Shown here one piece after another: positions 3,540 through 29,990 of a stretch of 64,000 bases of DNA (its first letter is position 1; each line of letters begins with the position of its first letter). The stretch lies in assembly GCA_902538915.1 (NCBI GenBank), contig CACBGZ010000002.1, forward strand, positions 1-64,000. Direction: 5' to 3'. The stretch comes from an uncultured Pelagibacteraceae bacterium. GTDB lineage: Bacteria; Pseudomonadota; Alphaproteobacteria; Pelagibacterales; Pelagibacteraceae. A program made the position numbers and the translations under genes. A model generated the notes under the pieces. That model ran no database searches. It worked only from the letters and a program-made list of their open reading frames with translations, and was not told the DNA's origin.

Positions 3540-4249
3540 TATTTTTTCTTTTTATCAGGGGTTTTTTTTGCTTTTTCAGTTAATTCTATTTTTTCTAAAA
3601 TTGTTAATTTGTTAATATTTTTTACAGATTTTTTAACAAAAACTTCAGAATTTTTAGAGCCTGGTATCGAACCTTTCAAATACAAAAGAGCGTTGTCTAA
3701 ATCTGTTTTGATAATTTCAATGTTTTGCATTGTTCGAATTTTATCACCCATATGACCAGCCATTTTTTTTCCTTTAAAGACTTTACCGGGGTCTTGTCTT
3801 TGACCAGTTGAGCCGTGAGATCTATGAGAAATTGATACACCATGAGATGCTCTCAAACCACCAAAATTATGTCTTTTCATTGCTCCAGCAAAACCCTTTC
3901 CTATAGTTCTTGATCTAGTATCAACAAATTTAACATCCTTAAAGATCTCAAGTCCAAATTCGTTTCCTTCCTTATAATTTTCAATATTTGAGACCCTAAA
4001 TTCCTTTAACTTCTTTTTTGCCTCAGTATTTTTTTTTGCAAAATAACCTTTCATAGACTTTGTAATTTTTGAATTTTTTATTTTTCCGTATCCAAGTTGA
4101 ACAGCTCTGTAGCCTCTTTTTTCAACATCAATAATTTGTATAACTCTTGCCTTTTCCATTTTAAGTACTGTTACAGGCACCAACTGACCAGTTTTGTAAA
4201 ATTCTCTGGTCATGCCAACTTTTTTTCCTATTAACGCAATTTCACTCAT
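3539..4249 (-). CDS. rplC: 50S ribosomal protein L3
   Basis: IGKKVGMTREF...SHGVSISHRSHGSTGQRQDPGKVFKGKKMAGHMG. Confidence 0.97.
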   Translation of the reverse strand: MSEIALIGKKVGMTREFYKTGQLVPVTVLKMEKARVIQIIDVEKRGYRAVQLGYGKIKNSKITKSMKGYFAKKNTEAKKKLKEFRVSNIENYKEGNEFGLEIFKDVKFVDTRSRTIGKGFAGAMKRHNFGGLRASHGVSISHRSHGSTGQRQDPGKVFKGKKMAGHMGDKIRTMQNIEIIKTDLDNALLYLKGSIPGSKNSEVFVKKSVKNINKLTILEKIELTEKAKKTPDKKKK

Positions 4250-22872: not shown

Positions 22873-23643
22873 TTATTTAGTCTCATTTCTTAATTGTTCA
22901 ATCTTAATCTTTTTTTGGAGACTTTTATTTTTATCATATAAAAGATTAAATCTTATTTTATGATTTGTTCTTATAAAAATATTTTTTGCATTTCTAACTT
23001 CAATATTGTCAGCAACAGCGCTGATAGGTCTTTTTTTTGAATTTAAATTTCTTATAATTATTTTTGATTTATCACTCACTATTTTCCCCTTCCATCTTCT
23101 GGGTCTAAACGCGCTTATCGGTGCAATTGATAATTTTTTAGAGTTCAAGCTTAGTATAGGACCATGCACTGAGAGATTATAAGCTGTGCTTCCAGCTGGT
23201 GTTGAAACCAGTACACCATCAGAAACAAGTTTTTTTATGACTTGCTTAGATCCATGATAAATAGATAAAGAGGCGGCTTGCCTACTTTGTCTTAAAATTG
23301 AAACTTCATTTATAGCTATATGTTTTTTAGTTTGATTTTTGTTATTTTTAATAACCATCTCTAGTGGAGAGATGGTTATCATTCTTGCTTTATGTAAATT
23401 ACTTATAATATTTTTTGATGAAAATTTATTCATCAAAAATCCATAACTTCCAGAATTTATGCCATAAAAAGTTTTTTTTGATTTTCTATTCTTCTTTAGT
23501 GTTTGCAGCATGAAACCATCACCACCAATAACAATTGTTATATTGGATCTTTTAACTTTATTTTGATTAATCTTTTTTTGGATTACTGATTTTATTTTTA
23601 AAGATCTTTGATTTTTATCAGATATAAGTTGAATCTTATTCAT
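22873..23643 (-). CDS. nadK: NAD kinase
   Basis: VIGGDGFMLQTLKK, YGINSGSYGFLMN, DGVLVSTPAGSTAYNLSVHGPIL. Confidence 0.93.
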   Translation of the reverse strand: MNKIQLISDKNQRSLKIKSVIQKKINQNKVKRSNITIVIGGDGFMLQTLKKNRKSKKTFYGINSGSYGFLMNKFSSKNIISNLHKARMITISPLEMVIKNNKNQTKKHIAINEVSILRQSRQAASLSIYHGSKQVIKKLVSDGVLVSTPAGSTAYNLSVHGPILSLNSKKLSIAPISAFRPRRWKGKIVSDKSKIIIRNLNSKKRPISAVADNIEVRNAKNIFIRTNHKIRFNLLYDKNKSLQKKIKIEQLRNETK

Positions 23644-23647
23644 TTAG

Positions 23648-23733
23648 TGGTGCCCTCGGCCAGACTCGAACTGGCACTCCGCAAGCGGCAAGGATTTTAA
23701 GTCCTTTGTGTCTACCAATTTCACCACGAGGGC
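23648..23733 (-). tRNA. trnL: tRNA-Leu(UAA), intact copy at left edge of tandem elements
   Basis: Minus strand GCCCTCGTGGTGAAATTGGTAGACACAAAGGACTTAAAATCCTTGCCGCTTGCGGAGTGCCAGTTCGAGTCTGGCCGAGGGCACCA; anticodon TAA. Confidence 0.97.
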
Positions 23734-23802
23734 ATTAATGAATTTCATGAGTATTTATGCTAATATTTATAATTGAACAAGATGAATAAGTAAATTTTTT
23801 TT
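23695..23802 (-). repeat. Attachment-type direct repeat copy 1: tRNA-Leu 5' half (from anticodon loop) plus upstream promoter
   Basis: TTTTAAGTCCTTTGTGTCTACC...GAATAAGTAAATTTTTTTT; 108 bp, 1 mismatch to copy 2. Confidence 0.95.
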
Positions 23803-23816
23803 AATTTATCTCTCTA

Positions 23817-23837
23817 GGTACTAGTTTAGTACTAGTT
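23817..23837 (+). repeat. Element 1 left twin arm repeat GGTACTAGTTTAGTACTAGTT
   Basis: Two GTACTAGTT units 11 bp apart; exact 21-bp copy at 25373-25393. Confidence 0.9.
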
Positions 23838-23856
23838 ATCCTATAAAATCCTATAA

Positions 23857-24405
23857 TTATTTTTGTCTACAGTTTGTGTGAACAATCTTACTACTACCAA
23901 CTCTTTGCGAAACACAATACATTCTAGGAGTTGAAGTATTTGCTGTTGTACCATATTTAGCATCAACAATAGCATTTAATATTTCATCACCATGATTGTA
24001 TAAAACCCAGGCAGCAGATTCCCAAAATTTCTTTAAAAAACCGTCCTTGTTAGTTTTTTCAATTTTTTCTCCATTTGAATTTTCATAACTAAATGTAAGT
24101 TCAATATTTTCTTTTTCTTTAGCCTCTTTTTGTAAAATATATTCTTGTACAGAAACATAGTCAGAAATAGATTTATCAGATTTGTTTAAAAGATATTGCT
24201 TATGAATATCATTCCCTATTTTAAAATGTTTTGCCATGCATTTGTGCCACGGAGAACCCCAGCTTTTATCTGCCTCGCTAACACCAATATTTCTACAAGA
24301 GTTTGCAGCAAATGCTCTTGTTTTGTCTCCAGAATAATCCATCTCTTTTCCAAAACAACCAGATAAAAGAAAAGCTAAAAGAGTAAAAATTGTAATTTTT
24401 TTCAT
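23857..24405 (-). CDS. Putative lipoprotein, element 1 cargo
   Basis: Signal peptide and lipobox LLAFLLSGC; no recognised domain. Confidence 0.75.
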   Translation of the reverse strand: MKKITIFTLLAFLLSGCFGKEMDYSGDKTRAFAANSCRNIGVSEADKSWGSPWHKCMAKHFKIGNDIHKQYLLNKSDKSISDYVSVQEYILQKEAKEKENIELTFSYENSNGEKIEKTNKDGFLKKFWESAAWVLYNHGDEILNAIVDAKYGTTANTSTPRMYCVSQRVGSSKIVHTNCRQK

Positions 24406-24413
24406 TAGATAAC

Positions 24414-25355
24414 CTATAAAATCCTATCTAATTCTTTTATCGGACCTTTGAAAGCTTTTTCTAATTTAATCAAATGATCTACTAAAAAATTGTGAATATC
24501 TTCCCATGTTTCTTCATCTTGAAAACCTCCTAAATCAGATTTAAATGTTATTCTACAAGCCCTAGAGTCATCTAGTCTTTTCCATTCTAATTCATTACCA
24601 AAATCTTTTTCAATAGATGTTTTATGCTTTTCCAAATGATTATAAATTTTTAAATTTGCCTCTTTACCTTCTTCTTTTCCTCTATCAATGTATATTTCTA
24701 CTTGACCAGATCTATTCATTGCAGCAACAAGATAATTAACCCCTCTTACACCAGCACTTACACCCATATAATTTCTGCCTTTTGGAGCTGTATTACTGTA
24801 GATATTACTTTTTTGTTTTAATTTTTCATAAAAAGCTGACCAAAAATTAAATTTAATTTTCTCTTTTTCCGAGTCTTCTTCCTTAATTTTTCCAACCTTT
24901 GTAATATTTTCATCTGGTCCTGATAATAAAAAAAATTGAGCTCCAGGCTCGCTATCTTTGATTTTAAAAACTTGAATTTTTACTAAAAAAAATAAACATG
25001 TTTTTACATTGGCATTGAGCCATTCAATTGCTCTGTGGTGCTCTGGTTTAACATCTTCTACTATCCAAATAGCTTTTTTTGTATTTTCCACATTACTTAT
25101 ATAGGTTAATAACTTACCTAAATGATCGTGATCAGATTTTTCAAATTGATTTTCAATTATTACTTTTCCCTGATCATCCTCAGCTACTATATCTACTTTA
25201 AAAGTATCTAATTTTTTTTCACTTTCAGGATCTTGAATATTTAATCCTAGATCTTCATTAAGTAATGCAATGTTCTGGACTAACCATGGTGTAAAATCTC
25301 TATCTTCTGTCTTCCAGATATCTCTTATTTTTTGTTTTTTAAGTCTTGAAACCAT
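24414..25355 (-). CDS. DUF4268-like restriction-endonuclease-fold protein, element 1 cargo
   Basis: FKVDIVAEDDQGKVIIENQFEKSDHDHLGKLLTYIS (PD-(D/E)XK-like, D-x(n)-ExQ variant). Confidence 0.7.
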   Translation of the reverse strand: MVSRLKKQKIRDIWKTEDRDFTPWLVQNIALLNEDLGLNIQDPESEKKLDTFKVDIVAEDDQGKVIIENQFEKSDHDHLGKLLTYISNVENTKKAIWIVEDVKPEHHRAIEWLNANVKTCLFFLVKIQVFKIKDSEPGAQFFLLSGPDENITKVGKIKEEDSEKEKIKFNFWSAFYEKLKQKSNIYSNTAPKGRNYMGVSAGVRGVNYLVAAMNRSGQVEIYIDRGKEEGKEANLKIYNHLEKHKTSIEKDFGNELEWKRLDDSRACRITFKSDLGGFQDEETWEDIHNFLVDHLIKLEKAFKGPIKELDRIL

Positions 25356-25372
25356 AAATATTTATCTCTTAA

Positions 25373-25393
25373 GGTACTAGTTTAGTACTAGTT
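25373..25393 (+). repeat. Element 1 right twin arm repeat GGTACTAGTTTAGTACTAGTT
   Basis: Exact 21-bp copy of 23817-23837. Confidence 0.9.
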
Positions 25394-25450
25394 TGACAAA
25401 AATAATTATTAAGAATTTTAAATAAAATAATCTTTATATTTTCAGAACTT

Positions 25451-25497
25451 ATAGGATTTTAAAGGATTTAGACTGCTCTGGACTACTATGGACTGAC
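25451..25497 (+). repeat. Element 1 right-end 10-bp-periodic iterons (AGGATTT x2, GACT x3)
   Basis: AGGATTT at 25453 and 25463; GACT at 25471, 25481, 25491. Confidence 0.75.
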
Positions 25498-25517
25498 TTT
25501 TACTTCTATCCCTCGCC

Positions 25518-25625
25518 TTTTAAGTCCTTTGTGTCTACCAATTTCACCACGAGGGCATTAATGAATTTCATGAGTATTTATGCTAATATTTATAATTGAA
25601 CAAGATTAATAAGTAAATTTTTTTT
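25518..25625 (-). repeat. Attachment-type direct repeat copy 2 (truncated tRNA-Leu 5' half plus promoter)
   Basis: 108 bp, identical to copy 1 except GATTAATAAG vs GATGAATAAG. Confidence 0.95.
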
Positions 25626-25638
25626 ATTTTATCTATCT

Positions 25639-25660
25639 GGCTTCTAGTTAGCTTCTAGTT
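25639..25660 (+). repeat. Element 2 left twin arm repeat GGCTTCTAGTTAGCTTCTAGTT
   Basis: Two GCTTCTAGTT units 11 bp apart; same geometry as element 1. Confidence 0.88.
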
Positions 25661-25673
25661 ATCCTACAAAATC

Positions 25674-26012
25674 CTAGAGCCAATCACTACACCAGGTAAA
25701 TACATCTGCTTCAAATTTTATATCATTAAATTTAAGCAGTTGTTTGTATCTTTCTAATCTATGCTTTTTATCAAACTTAGTGAGGAAATTGTATATTTTA
25801 TCATAATTTAATCCCTTCAGATCTGTTTTTTTTATATCTACATATTCTTCATAATCTAAACCACATATAGAAAATTTTTTTTTAGGATCAATATGTTCTG
25901 AGTAGCTAATGGTGTCTTTACTCTCTTTTAATATATCATAATAATGAGCCACTTCATTATTTCTCTCAAAAAGATAATCTTTTCTGAAATCAAACAGTTC
26001 AAGTTGTTGCAT
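25674..26012 (-). CDS. Hypothetical protein with N-terminal QLELF motif, element 2 cargo (start refined to ATG)
   Basis: The ORF-track start is TTG; CAT at 26010-26012 gives the ATG start MQQLELFDFRKDYLFE. Confidence 0.7.
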   Translation of the reverse strand: MQQLELFDFRKDYLFERNNEVAHYYDILKESKDTISYSEHIDPKKKFSICGLDYEEYVDIKKTDLKGLNYDKIYNFLTKFDKKHRLERYKQLLKFNDIKFEADVFTWCSDWL

Positions 26013-26112
26013 ATATTTGGAATTGTTAAAGTTAGAAATAAACTTTAACAATAATTAATATAATTAGCAAAAATGGCAGAAGTTTGGTTGATCAATCAAA
26101 ATATTAAAAAAT

Positions 26113-28992
26113 TTACAAAAGGTTATTATTAAATATTTCATCTACAAATTGTAAAGCTTCCTCATGATTTTTAAACTTAAAAAACTTTTCTTTCATTTTT
26201 TTACTAATTAATTGTCTGATTTCTATTTCTGGATAAGGGATTTTGAAACTCTTCAGTGTAGGTTGGTTAATACCACCCTGACCTCCTTTGGTTGATGCGT
26301 AATTAATATATTTTCTAAAGTTTGATGAATACAAGTATGCAAATGTATACCAATAATCTAATTCCGGTTTTAGTCTCAATATAAATACATGTTCATTGAC
26401 AATAGCTTTTTGCTGTAAGTTATTATGCACTAAAATTGTTTTACCCGACCTAGCTCCATCTTTTGTAATTAAAATGTCATTTTTTTTAATAGTCCATTTA
26501 GCTGGACAAGTTGAAAAGTATTCTTCACTTACAAATTCTTTTGATGATAAATCAAATTCACCCCCTTCACCAAGATGTCCTCCACCAATAGACAATACAC
26601 CTTTTTCTATTCTACCAGTGCCTCCTTTTGGTCTTTTACCAGATATCAAATCATCGAGAATAAATTCTTTTAGAGGTATAAAATCGCAATTAAAATTAGG
26701 TGTTAAATCCTCTTCCAAAAAGGGATTAAAAGTACCATCTTTAGAAACAAATTTTTTAAAGTCTAGATATAGTAAAATATCTTTAAATTTATCATTTTTT
26801 GATTTTGAGTTTTTAAAATATTTTTCTAAATTTTCACCTAAAAGTATTTTTTTTACATAATAAGAAATATAATTCTCATCATTAGTTTTTTCTTCATTGA
26901 ATAAAATACCATCATTAAAAGTTTGAATGCCCTCAAATCCACGCCTTTCAGAAAACTCATAACCAAGTAATTTTTTTTGTTTTTTTGATTTTTTGTCATC
27001 AGGTGGATCCAAATCAGCAATCAAAATTTTATCATTATTGGGTTTATTTTTTCTGATCATAAACAAAATCATTGTTCTCATAGGGGTTTTTCTGAATGCT
27101 TTGTCCCCAAGTTTTATCAACGCTTTAATTTCAAAATTCTCTAAAAGAAACTCTCTGGTATTAGAATTAATTTCATCAGTTGTAGTTAATAAGGACCTTG
27201 GTACAATTACCCCAATAATTCCATTTTCCTTTAAAAGCTGTTTTGCCCTCTCTAAAAATAAACATTCAATTTTATCACTAGTAGGGCTTAAATATTTATA
27301 TAATGAAAAATTATTTTCCCCATCGATAATTCTATTTTTAAAATTATCAACTGAGTATGGGGGATTTGCTACAATTATATCAAACACTTGATTATTTTGA
27401 TCGCTCTTTTCAGATTTTAATAATTTTTTATAATCATGGTTATAGAATGGAAGTAAACCATCGGTGCAAAAAGTATTTGCATCACCATCTCCATTGAGAA
27501 ATGAATTTACTTTTGTTGTTTTTGCTAGTCTGTAATCTTTTTCAATTGCATAAACATATTCATTGCACCATTTATAATTCTTTTTATTCTGAGTGAAATT
27601 ATCAACAGCAGTTTTTCCTCCCTCAATCTCTTTAATGTTTAACTCATCAATTACTTTTTGAATTAATGAAATCATTTCAGTAATAAAATGACCACTACCT
27701 GATGCATAATCAATTACATAAGGTAAGAAATTTATATCCTTATTTTTATTCTTATTTTTAATAATATTTTCAATAGGAATACTATTACAAATAAAAGATG
27801 CTAAAGGTATTGGCGTAAAAAATTGTCCAGATTCTTGTTTAATCCCTGTATCTAAAATTTTTTCAAAAAAGTCACCAAGATATTGATGCTTTGTACTGTA
27901 TTTAAGTTTATAAGTTTGTAAAAGTTGAACAATTGATTTTACAATAAATGCATTTTCTTCAAAAGTTTTTTTGTTAAAAATTTCTTTGAATTCAAATTCA
28001 TTAGAAACAATTGATGTATTTTCATTTAATTTAAGGTACTTTTTGAAGCTATTTAAATTCTTAAAATCATCTTCAATTAAATTATTTTTACTATCAAAAA
28101 TATCAACATTTAAATAATTTTTTGTGCCTTTTATATAAAGATCTTTTAATCTTTTAATAAACGAAGTGTAGTCGTCACTTTCTAACCACTGAAAATCTAA
28201 AGATTTTTTAAAGTTTTGATCCTCATCAAAAATTTTACAAATAAATAAATTAAAAATCTTATTAAATGCATTTGTTTTATCAGAAACAATATTCCTCCTT
28301 AATATTTCAGCAAATTGGTTAAAAATGTAACCACCATCATCTGAATTTATATCCCTTAAATCACTATAGTCTAATCTTTCTATACCTAGTTCGTAAGGTT
28401 TTTTACCCTCTTCAAATAAACCTTTAGATATAAAAATTTTGTCCCATTTTTCGTATAAATCTTTCAAATTTTTTGAGGATGACATTTCTTTGGTTGGAAG
28501 AAAATAATCGTATTGTCTTTGAATAGTGTCTTTTTCAAATTTTGATGTATAAATAGAAACAATCTTAGTATCTTTTTCATTTAAAAAATAACTGAGTAAT
28601 TGGTTTTTCTTCCAATCAGTTGTTGTTTTTTCTTTTGAATTATTAAACTCTTTACCAAAAGTCTTACAATCAATTAAGGCCCAAGATTTTTTTTTATTGT
28701 CTAAAATTTGTACATCACAATAACCAGCGCCAGCATTATGCCCAAGAGAAAAAGGTTTTTCTAAAACTATATTCTCACTGTTATAGCCAATATTTAGTAG
28801 TTTAATTACAAATTCTAAAACAACTAAATTTTCCTGTTTTTCTTTTAAATCATTTATTGTCTTTCGGTGAATTTTTATATCACCATAATCAATTACGAAA
28901 TCTTCTGAAACATATATTTTATTTTTTCCTTTTGAGAATAAATAAGAATTCTCTTTTTCTTTAAAATTTAATAAAGATAAATATTTTTTCAT
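26113..28992 (-). CDS. Single-polypeptide restriction-modification protein (type IIG-like: nuclease, N6-adenine methylase, specificity domain)
   Basis: N-terminal YCDVQILDNKKKSWALIDCK (PD-(D/E)XK-like); motif I VIDYASGSGHF; motif IV DIIVANPPYS; C-terminal ISGKRPKGGT...GGINQPTLKSFKIPYP (HsdS-like TRD). Confidence 0.85.
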   Translation of the reverse strand: MKKYLSLLNFKEKENSYLFSKGKNKIYVSEDFVIDYGDIKIHRKTINDLKEKQENLVVLEFVIKLLNIGYNSENIVLEKPFSLGHNAGAGYCDVQILDNKKKSWALIDCKTFGKEFNNSKEKTTTDWKKNQLLSYFLNEKDTKIVSIYTSKFEKDTIQRQYDYFLPTKEMSSSKNLKDLYEKWDKIFISKGLFEEGKKPYELGIERLDYSDLRDINSDDGGYIFNQFAEILRRNIVSDKTNAFNKIFNLFICKIFDEDQNFKKSLDFQWLESDDYTSFIKRLKDLYIKGTKNYLNVDIFDSKNNLIEDDFKNLNSFKKYLKLNENTSIVSNEFEFKEIFNKKTFEENAFIVKSIVQLLQTYKLKYSTKHQYLGDFFEKILDTGIKQESGQFFTPIPLASFICNSIPIENIIKNKNKNKDINFLPYVIDYASGSGHFITEMISLIQKVIDELNIKEIEGGKTAVDNFTQNKKNYKWCNEYVYAIEKDYRLAKTTKVNSFLNGDGDANTFCTDGLLPFYNHDYKKLLKSEKSDQNNQVFDIIVANPPYSVDNFKNRIIDGENNFSLYKYLSPTSDKIECLFLERAKQLLKENGIIGVIVPRSLLTTTDEINSNTREFLLENFEIKALIKLGDKAFRKTPMRTMILFMIRKNKPNNDKILIADLDPPDDKKSKKQKKLLGYEFSERRGFEGIQTFNDGILFNEEKTNDENYISYYVKKILLGENLEKYFKNSKSKNDKFKDILLYLDFKKFVSKDGTFNPFLEEDLTPNFNCDFIPLKEFILDDLISGKRPKGGTGRIEKGVLSIGGGHLGEGGEFDLSSKEFVSEEYFSTCPAKWTIKKNDILITKDGARSGKTILVHNNLQQKAIVNEHVFILRLKPELDYWYTFAYLYSSNFRKYINYASTKGGQGGINQPTLKSFKIPYPEIEIRQLISKKMKEKFFKFKNHEEALQFVDEIFNNNLL

Positions 28993-29020
28993 TTATTAAC
29001 CATATATTTTTATCCCTACA

Positions 29021-29041
29021 GCTTCTAGTGTACTTCTAGTT
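29021..29041 (+). repeat. Element 2 right twin arm repeat GCTTCTAGTGTACTTCTAGTT
   Basis: Two units 11 bp apart; matches element 2 left repeat. Confidence 0.85.
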
Positions 29042-29100
29042 TGAGAGAATTTACTAACCATATTTTTCAATAAAAATAAGTGTGAGTTTTTAAAAGTGTA

Positions 29101-29147
29101 AGATTTTGTGATTTTAAGATTGTATGAGACTACCAGAGACTAACTAA
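29101..29147 (+). repeat. Element 2 right-end 10-bp-periodic iterons (GATT, GACT, GACT)
   Basis: GATT at 29118, GACT at 29128 and 29138; distances to the core match element 1. Confidence 0.7.
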
Positions 29148-29164
29148 ATTGTGAATCCTCTGCC

Positions 29165-29271
29165 TTTTAAGTCCTTTGTGTCTACCAATTTCACCACGAG
29201 GGCATCTGTTATTTTCATGAGTGTTTATGCTAATATTTATAATTTAACAAGATGAATAAGTAAATTTTTTT
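29165..29271 (-). repeat. Attachment-type direct repeat copy 3 (truncated tRNA-Leu 5' half plus promoter; probably the ancestral chromosomal copy)
   Basis: Identical over the tRNA half; seven substitutions upstream, five clustered just before the mature 5' end. Confidence 0.93.
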
Positions 29272-29297
29272 ATACTACTAATTATCATTAGTATAAA

Positions 29298-29990
29298 TTA
29301 TAAATTGTAAACTTTTGCCAATATCTCTCTTTTTTCATAATCATTAACTCGACCCAAAATATCAAAAAAAATAATTTTTAACGCATTCTTATAATGTTGA
29401 GATTTTTTTTCATTTCCTACATTGGTAAAATTAAATGAAGAAAGTTTAATTTCTGACTCATTAGGTATTGAAGAAATTTTAATAAATGCTTTTCCATTCA
29501 TTATATGACTACTCAAAATTAAAAAATTTATATCCCTTACCTTTTTAGGCCAGACTTTGTCAGGCGTCTTACTATTAAGCTTTTCTGCTATACCAATATT
29601 GTCCTGAAAAGTGACTTCAATTTTTTCTTTTTTTTCAATCTCAGACGCAATTTTTTTTTCAATAATTTCTAAATAGAATTCTGGGTTTTCTATTTTTAAC
29701 TCATTAATTATAACGAGACTTTTAAAAAGATATGAATTCAAGTCTAAATTAAAAAAAATTTTATCTGCTTTAAAAGTGTTATTATAAAATTTAGTATTAT
29801 TATTACGTACTTTTAGTCCATATACAGTTATTGAACCTGGAAAATTATATTTAAATTCATCAAAATTTATCTCTCTTTCTAACCAATTAGATAATTTATA
29901 ATAAACATATTTCTCTACAATTTTTTCATTAAAAGATATTGTTAAAATTAAGAAAAACACAGTAACAAAAAACCAGTTTATTTTTTTCAT
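29298..29990 (-). CDS. Membrane-anchored AsmA-like hypothetical protein
   Basis: N-terminal TM, LEREINFDEFKYNFPGSITVYGLKVRN pattern. Confidence 0.5.
   Translation of the reverse strand: MKKINWFFVTVFFLILTISFNEKIVEKYVYYKLSNWLEREINFDEFKYNFPGSITVYGLKVRNNNTKFYNNTFKADKIFFNLDLNSYLFKSLVIINELKIENPEFYLEIIEKKIASEIEKKEKIEVTFQDNIGIAEKLNSKTPDKVWPKKVRDINFLILSSHIMNGKAFIKISSIPNESEIKLSSFNFTNVGNEKKSQHYKNALKIIFFDILGRVNDYEKREILAKVYNL

Follow-up and report, generated by a model that had tools for sequence, protein, structure and literature searches.

The 64,000-nt window analysed here, from an uncultured Pelagibacteraceae bacterium, carries two cassettes that lack an integrase and belong to a site-specific family; on comparative evidence, insertion of such a cassette into tRNA-Leu(TAA) exchanges the promoter of that gene. 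The best overall explanation, to which we assign a probability of roughly 0.6, is that the cassettes are mobilised in trans, swap the tRNA promoter as they insert, and leave their cargo behind the displaced one. Comparison among genomes shows that the promoter is displaced and swapped, that cargo orientation is biased, that the two ends of a cassette match and that integrase-bearing relatives exist.

Two cassettes at one tRNA gene

The target of the cassettes is the sole intact tRNA-Leu(TAA) copy found in this incomplete genome. The crossover site is the anticodon loop (CTTAAAA), and identity between intact and displaced copies stops at ACTTAAAA. The array comprises the following features, the tandem pairs and both left arms being given without a strand:

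23648..23733, minus strand: intact tRNA-Leu(TAA), the target gene (ARAGORN; Rfam RF00005)
23695-25517: cassette 1, 1.8 kb, without an integrase
23745..23781, minus strand: block upstream of the intact tRNA, at present contributed by cassette 1, 0 mismatches to the 37-nt string
23775-23780 and 23752-23757, minus strand: candidate -35 (TTGTTC) and -10 (TAAATA) boxes of the intact tRNA
23817..23837: right-end tandem pair of cassette 1, ACTAGTAC twice, 11-bp period
23857..24405, minus strand: second cargo gene of cassette 1, a putative lipoprotein of 182 aa
24414..25355, minus strand: first cargo gene of cassette 1, a candidate defence protein of 313 aa (DUF4268 / PDC-S11)
25373..25393: left-end tandem pair of cassette 1, identical to the right-end copy
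25470..25497: three AGTC-type repeats with an 11-bp period, forming the cassette 1 left arm
25518-29164: cassette 2, 3.6 kb, without an integrase
25518..25557, minus strand: displaced tRNA-Leu 5' half at the cassette 1 / cassette 2 junction
25568..25604, minus strand: displaced promoter block facing the cassette 1 cargo, 0 mismatches
25599-25604 and 25576-25581, minus strand: candidate -35 and -10 boxes facing cassette 1
25640..25660: right-end tandem pair of cassette 2, CTAGAAGC twice, 11-bp period
25674..26051, minus strand: second cargo gene of cassette 2, encoding 125 aa
26113..28992, minus strand: first cargo gene of cassette 2, a Type IIG restriction-methylation protein of 959 aa that includes a specificity domain
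29020..29041: left-end tandem pair of cassette 2 (CTAGAAG twice)
29117..29145: AGTC-type repeats forming the cassette 2 left arm, an arm close in sequence to that of the integrase-bearing relative L285
29165..29204, minus strand: outermost displaced tRNA-Leu 5' half
29215..29251, minus strand: outermost displaced promoter block, facing the cassette 2 cargo, 2 mismatches
29246-29251 and 29223-29228, minus strand: outermost candidate -35 (TTGTTA) and -10 (TAAACA) boxes

The repeats span 159 nt. The copy at 25518 is 93% identical over the full length; the one at 29165 shows the same 93% identity for the initial 107 nt only and is divergent beyond. A first-pass annotation of this DNA had proposed that the displaced repeats keep the region upstream of the tRNA, and this held: the 37-nt upstream string occurs three times on the minus strand of the window (0, 0 and 2 mismatches, the last two values belonging to the displaced copies) and not at all in 100 shuffles. 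The two changes in the 29215-29251 block turn TTGTTC into TTGTTA and TAAATA into TAAACA. Within cassette 1, the GCGAGGG that follows the half tRNA (25500-25568, minus strand) can pair with the 5' acceptor strand GCCCTCG, with a fold no better than those of shuffles.

All four cargo genes share the minus strand with the tRNA, as the annotation had also stated. Its further claim that the cargo lies directly downstream of a displaced copy applies to the first gene of each element, with 162 nt (cassette 1) and 172 nt (cassette 2) between the half tRNA and the start codon; the second genes follow the first ones, trailing them by 8 and 61 bp. Its label of defence cargo fits two of the window genes, 24414-25355 (Pfam E=2.8e-33; PADLOC E=2.9e-105) and 26113-28992 (REase_MTase_IIG E=7.5e-138), but neither 23857-24405, whose LPAM_1 match fell slightly below cut-off, nor 25674-26051 matched a defence model. 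Cargo in relatives is likewise general, the 159 proteins of the enlarged set falling into 110 families, 93 of them single-member. The protein encoded at 25674-26051 is 85-88% identical to small right-end ORFs of cassettes L064 and L040. One cassette of another locus (L037, 3829-9515) contains a row of some ten related small ORFs, members of a family of 21 in the cargo set, and L202 has similar repeated ORFs with prepilin-like starts (FTLIELLVV).

Orientation, promoters and ends in related cassettes

The tRNA region was matched in 116 genomes when the bacterium's own genome and 150 others were searched. One to three displaced halves lie on the same contig as the intact gene at 24 of the 60 loci fetched, and some of the remaining loci stop near a contig edge yet have a cassette-type pair beside the tRNA. 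Scanning public genomes with the displaced-half sequence yielded 80 more loci, titled Pelagibacteraceae, Pelagibacterales or Pelagibacter; this set overlaps the 24-locus set, so that counts from the two are not fully independent. Cassettes are mostly about 0.7 to 6.4 kb long, but empty copies measure 267 bp and, in the enlarged set described below, 275 bp. The shorter of these (L074, genome G077) has its left arm connected to the promoter block via one tandem pair and contains no cargo, as if cargo had been lost between the two pairs.

Cargo is strongly co-oriented with the tRNA. Across 30 complete cassettes, 75 of 77 ORFs run along the tRNA direction, as does the first gene in 29 of the 30 (p=6e-8); the proportion is 144/153 among cargo ORFs of an enlarged, deduplicated set (about 80 distinct elements), and 80 of the 85 first ORFs close downstream of 96 displaced halves, an overlapping set, are co-oriented as well. 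Co-orientation could alternatively have been inherited from an integrase-bearing ancestor or selected against antisense transcription. A rival account builds on both, with antisense avoidance across the tRNA or ancestral inheritance setting the direction and the cargo expressed mainly via read-through from upstream; many upstream neighbours do share the direction, and at L050 and L074 the displaced half lies 4-6 nt past the upstream gene with the promoter block gone. We consider this account improbable, given that the upstream neighbour is divergent at L034, L041, L044, L051, L061 and L062, and read-through is therefore unavailable at those six loci.

Of the displaced copies, 9 of 10 inner ones and 17 of 24 outer ones retain the promoter block, as do 70/95 copies of a second set. 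Among the 7 outer copies in which it differs, the block appears to have been lost at L041, L050 and the cargo-free L074, whereas at least one, L048, has a native promoter type of another lineage before the displaced half and an element-type promoter at the intact tRNA. The same native type as in the displaced copy of L048 is found at L087, L089 and L090, tRNA sites without a visible element. The comparison indicates promoter exchange on insertion, in which the tRNA would be handed a new promoter and the old one left facing the cargo; the earlier idea that integration displaces a promoter towards the cargo is thereby upheld. The -35 and -10 assignment made earlier also agrees with the relatives: in diverged promoter types, the layout TTGnnn-N16-18-TAnAnn recurs at the proposed box positions in 12 of 20 against 1.3 expected, although this pattern was picked after inspection and its significance is therefore inflated. 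The promoter first considered, TTTACT-N17-TATAAA further upstream, was rejected, the diverged types favouring the TTGnnn / TAnAnn boxes instead.

The annotation had included neither matched end repeats nor integrase-bearing relatives. Behind the half tRNA in each cassette lie AGTC-type repeats with an 11-bp period, and both cassette ends carry an element-specific tandem pair of 8-mers with the same period. The pairs at an element's own two ends match at 15/19 or better in 64 of 76 elements, against 12% for unrelated ends, and none of 20,000 permutations reached the observed total (p<5e-5). An over-strict left-arm pattern gave no match across 300 genomes. Paired 11-bp direct repeats at both ends recall the arm-type sites of integrases such as that of Tn916.

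Integrase-bearing relatives and cargo transcription

No PF00589 integrase was found at cassette loci in the 30 genomes searched or near the array in the bacterium's own genome, and the window cargo proteins matched no integrase family. A local integrase profile run over the cassette loci gave a single weak candidate, in L202, for whose protein there was no Pfam match; homologues of it in two further genomes lie directly after a displaced tRNA-Leu half. Two of three integrases match phrog_1 at E ~2e-21, and the L202 protein does so at 3e-8. Homologues occurred in six genomes of 300 searched, three of them strong, and searching 397 genomes with a profile yielded a further strong match in G537, from another genus, with no tRNA-Leu half on the short stretch fetched. 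Against solved structures, the integrase profile gave nothing beyond weak matches with designed repeat proteins. The arm-bearing relatives thus named encode a divergent tyrosine integrase.

The integrase-bearing elements L284, L285 and L286 (7.8 to 10.2 kb) occupy the same tRNA, with all ORFs shown co-oriented, and carry pair sequences at both ends (ACCAGCAC, CTAGAAAC, TTCCACAC). Their left-end units are less regularly spaced, all three falling under the strict 15/19 match, and in L284 and L285 repeat units lie inside the start of the integrase ORF. L284 encodes a predicted 766-aa primase-helicase and a predicted RusA-like protein; no packaging genes were identified among the L284-L286 ORFs scanned. 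Most simply, the cassettes would be non-autonomous derivatives of such elements mobilised in trans, although no case of a cassette and an integrase of the same pair in one genome was seen among the genomes compared.

Pelagiphage integrases could instead mobilise the cassettes via the tRNA-Leu core that they share. HTVC105P (L122) and the uncultured S35-C6 (L123) carry the same 42-nt 5'-half core, at 4001-4042, beside an integrase gene. Their attachment regions, however, have neither the promoter block nor the cassette arms, the cassette left arm matched nothing in phages, and the integrase of the arm-bearing relatives had no homologue in the phage collection searched. We therefore rate this route as quite improbable, and HTVC105P was set aside as a direct mobiliser because the arms differ.

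Since the displaced promoter stands ahead of the new cargo, the cargo is most simply read from this tRNA promoter, and its leader would open with half a tRNA. The general idea of an island coupled to tRNA transcription appears in PMC2951348. No terminator-like site was found in 26 leaders, and the minus strand of the two window leaders contains neither a promoter-like nor a terminator-like site. The first start codon lies a median of 33 nt past the left pair, which leaves little room for a further promoter downstream of the arm. Both promoter-scoring models were kept out of the evidence: one derived from Pelagibacter tRNA upstream regions performed poorly and failed to pick out the tRNA block, and with an E. 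coli-type model that block scored no differently from leaders or shuffles. In a consensus promoter scan of the window, the displaced tRNA block was not among the sites listed. A structured half-tRNA regulator was also considered and dropped because leader folds are unremarkable (z -1.0 to 0.8).

An alternative that we regard as unlikely is that the displaced promoter is a passive by-product of the attachment site and that the cargo promoter is internal to the left arm; the tandem pair would then sit close to the -35 position, and a TATAAT-like hexamer would stand just ahead of the start codon. Such hexamers (5/6 or better, between left pair and start) are present in 24 of 26 leaders against 19 expected (p ~0.02), several of them 17 nt from the second repeat unit. 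However, the enrichment is weak, both window cassettes reach only 4/6 in leaders without a promoter-like site, and in L284 and L285 the repeat units overlap the start of the integrase ORF. The mild enrichment does allow for an internal promoter in some cassettes.

Under the favoured explanation of trans mobilisation with promoter exchange, an integrase of the arm-bearing family would most likely act in trans, recognising the cassette ends by their AGTC repeats and matched tandem pair and exchanging strands within the anticodon loop of tRNA-Leu. Because a cassette carries the tRNA 5' half together with the promoter upstream of it, each insertion would swap the tRNA promoter, and the previous promoter and half tRNA would end up about 160-230 nt ahead of the new cargo. 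In a circular cassette, its own promoter would face its own cargo. We infer the trans mobilisation, the circular form, the transcription start and the co-transcription of the other genes in each cassette. More tentatively, SAR11 may possess a tRNA-based gene capture system in which a portable, shared tRNA promoter, passed along with each insertion, is combined with matched repeats that divide cassettes among integrases of differing arm specificity; such a division might explain an array without an integrase of its own.

Relation to known elements and meaning for SAR11

The cassettes can be compared with integron cassettes and with MITEs but are distinct from both. Like integron cassettes, they form arrays of mostly co-oriented, highly diverse cargo with no obvious promoters, added at one end by what would be a tyrosine recombinase and plausibly expressed from a promoter at the site. 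Unlike in integrons, the crossover lies in a tRNA anticodon loop, the ends consist of direct repeats and arm-like repeats, each cassette brings its own promoter, and the arrays studied are without an integrase, rare integrase-bearing elements excepted. No attC site was detected in 23600-29400, where the tRNA was the sole Rfam match at E<=1. As in MITEs, the ends of an autonomous element appear to be retained with the enzyme gene missing, and the 267- and 275-bp copies add to the likeness; here, however, site-specific integrase-type ends enclose full cargo genes.

The 8-10 kb integrase-bearing relatives recall P4/PICI satellites, L284 with its integrase, primase-helicase and RusA-like protein in particular, but no packaging or capsid gene was identified in these relatives. 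An own integrase, as in such satellites, is present in L284, L285 and L286, whereas the window cassettes have no integrase, primase-helicase or RusA-like gene, and hence no replication module. Tycheposons, as described via PMC10872708, share tRNA-bordered cargo, a link to a tyrosine recombinase and a home in streamlined marine bacteria; the cassettes here are mostly 1-6 kb and recombinase-free, so that the tRNA border is present without an element-encoded tyrosine recombinase beside it. A further difference is the use of the tRNA 5' half, by which the promoter is exchanged.

Islands with 5' tRNA fragments, including the archaeal pTN3 type, come close in that the recombinant tRNA is placed under an element-borne promoter and the displaced native promoter may read element genes. 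In the window, an intact tRNA is restored and the 5' fragment is displaced upstream in the same orientation, and the comparison of L048 with L087, L089 and L090 has the element supply the tRNA promoter. pTN3 carries and splits its own integrase, whereas here the arrays consist of cassettes that have none. In the Islander collection, 5' fragments border 159 islands and 3' fragments 3760; a candidate that lacks an integrase or is shorter than 2 kb is not accepted there (PMC4383910). Island finders with either demand would miss many such cassettes. These cassettes were not described in the literature searched, a body with most subscription papers and bioRxiv outside its scope.

Few cells in the ocean are as abundant as SAR11 bacteria, whose genomes are streamlined, and little is known of the ways in which they acquire and express foreign genes. 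The matched end repeats offer a rule, open to testing, that would link each cassette to the integrase that moves it. If the reading is true, placing cargo at a widespread site behind the promoter of an essential tRNA, with neither an integrase nor an obvious promoter of its own, would explain how new genes are expressed at almost no cost in DNA, through a gene-capture arrangement in Pelagibacter that, judged from its sequence, resembles an integron.
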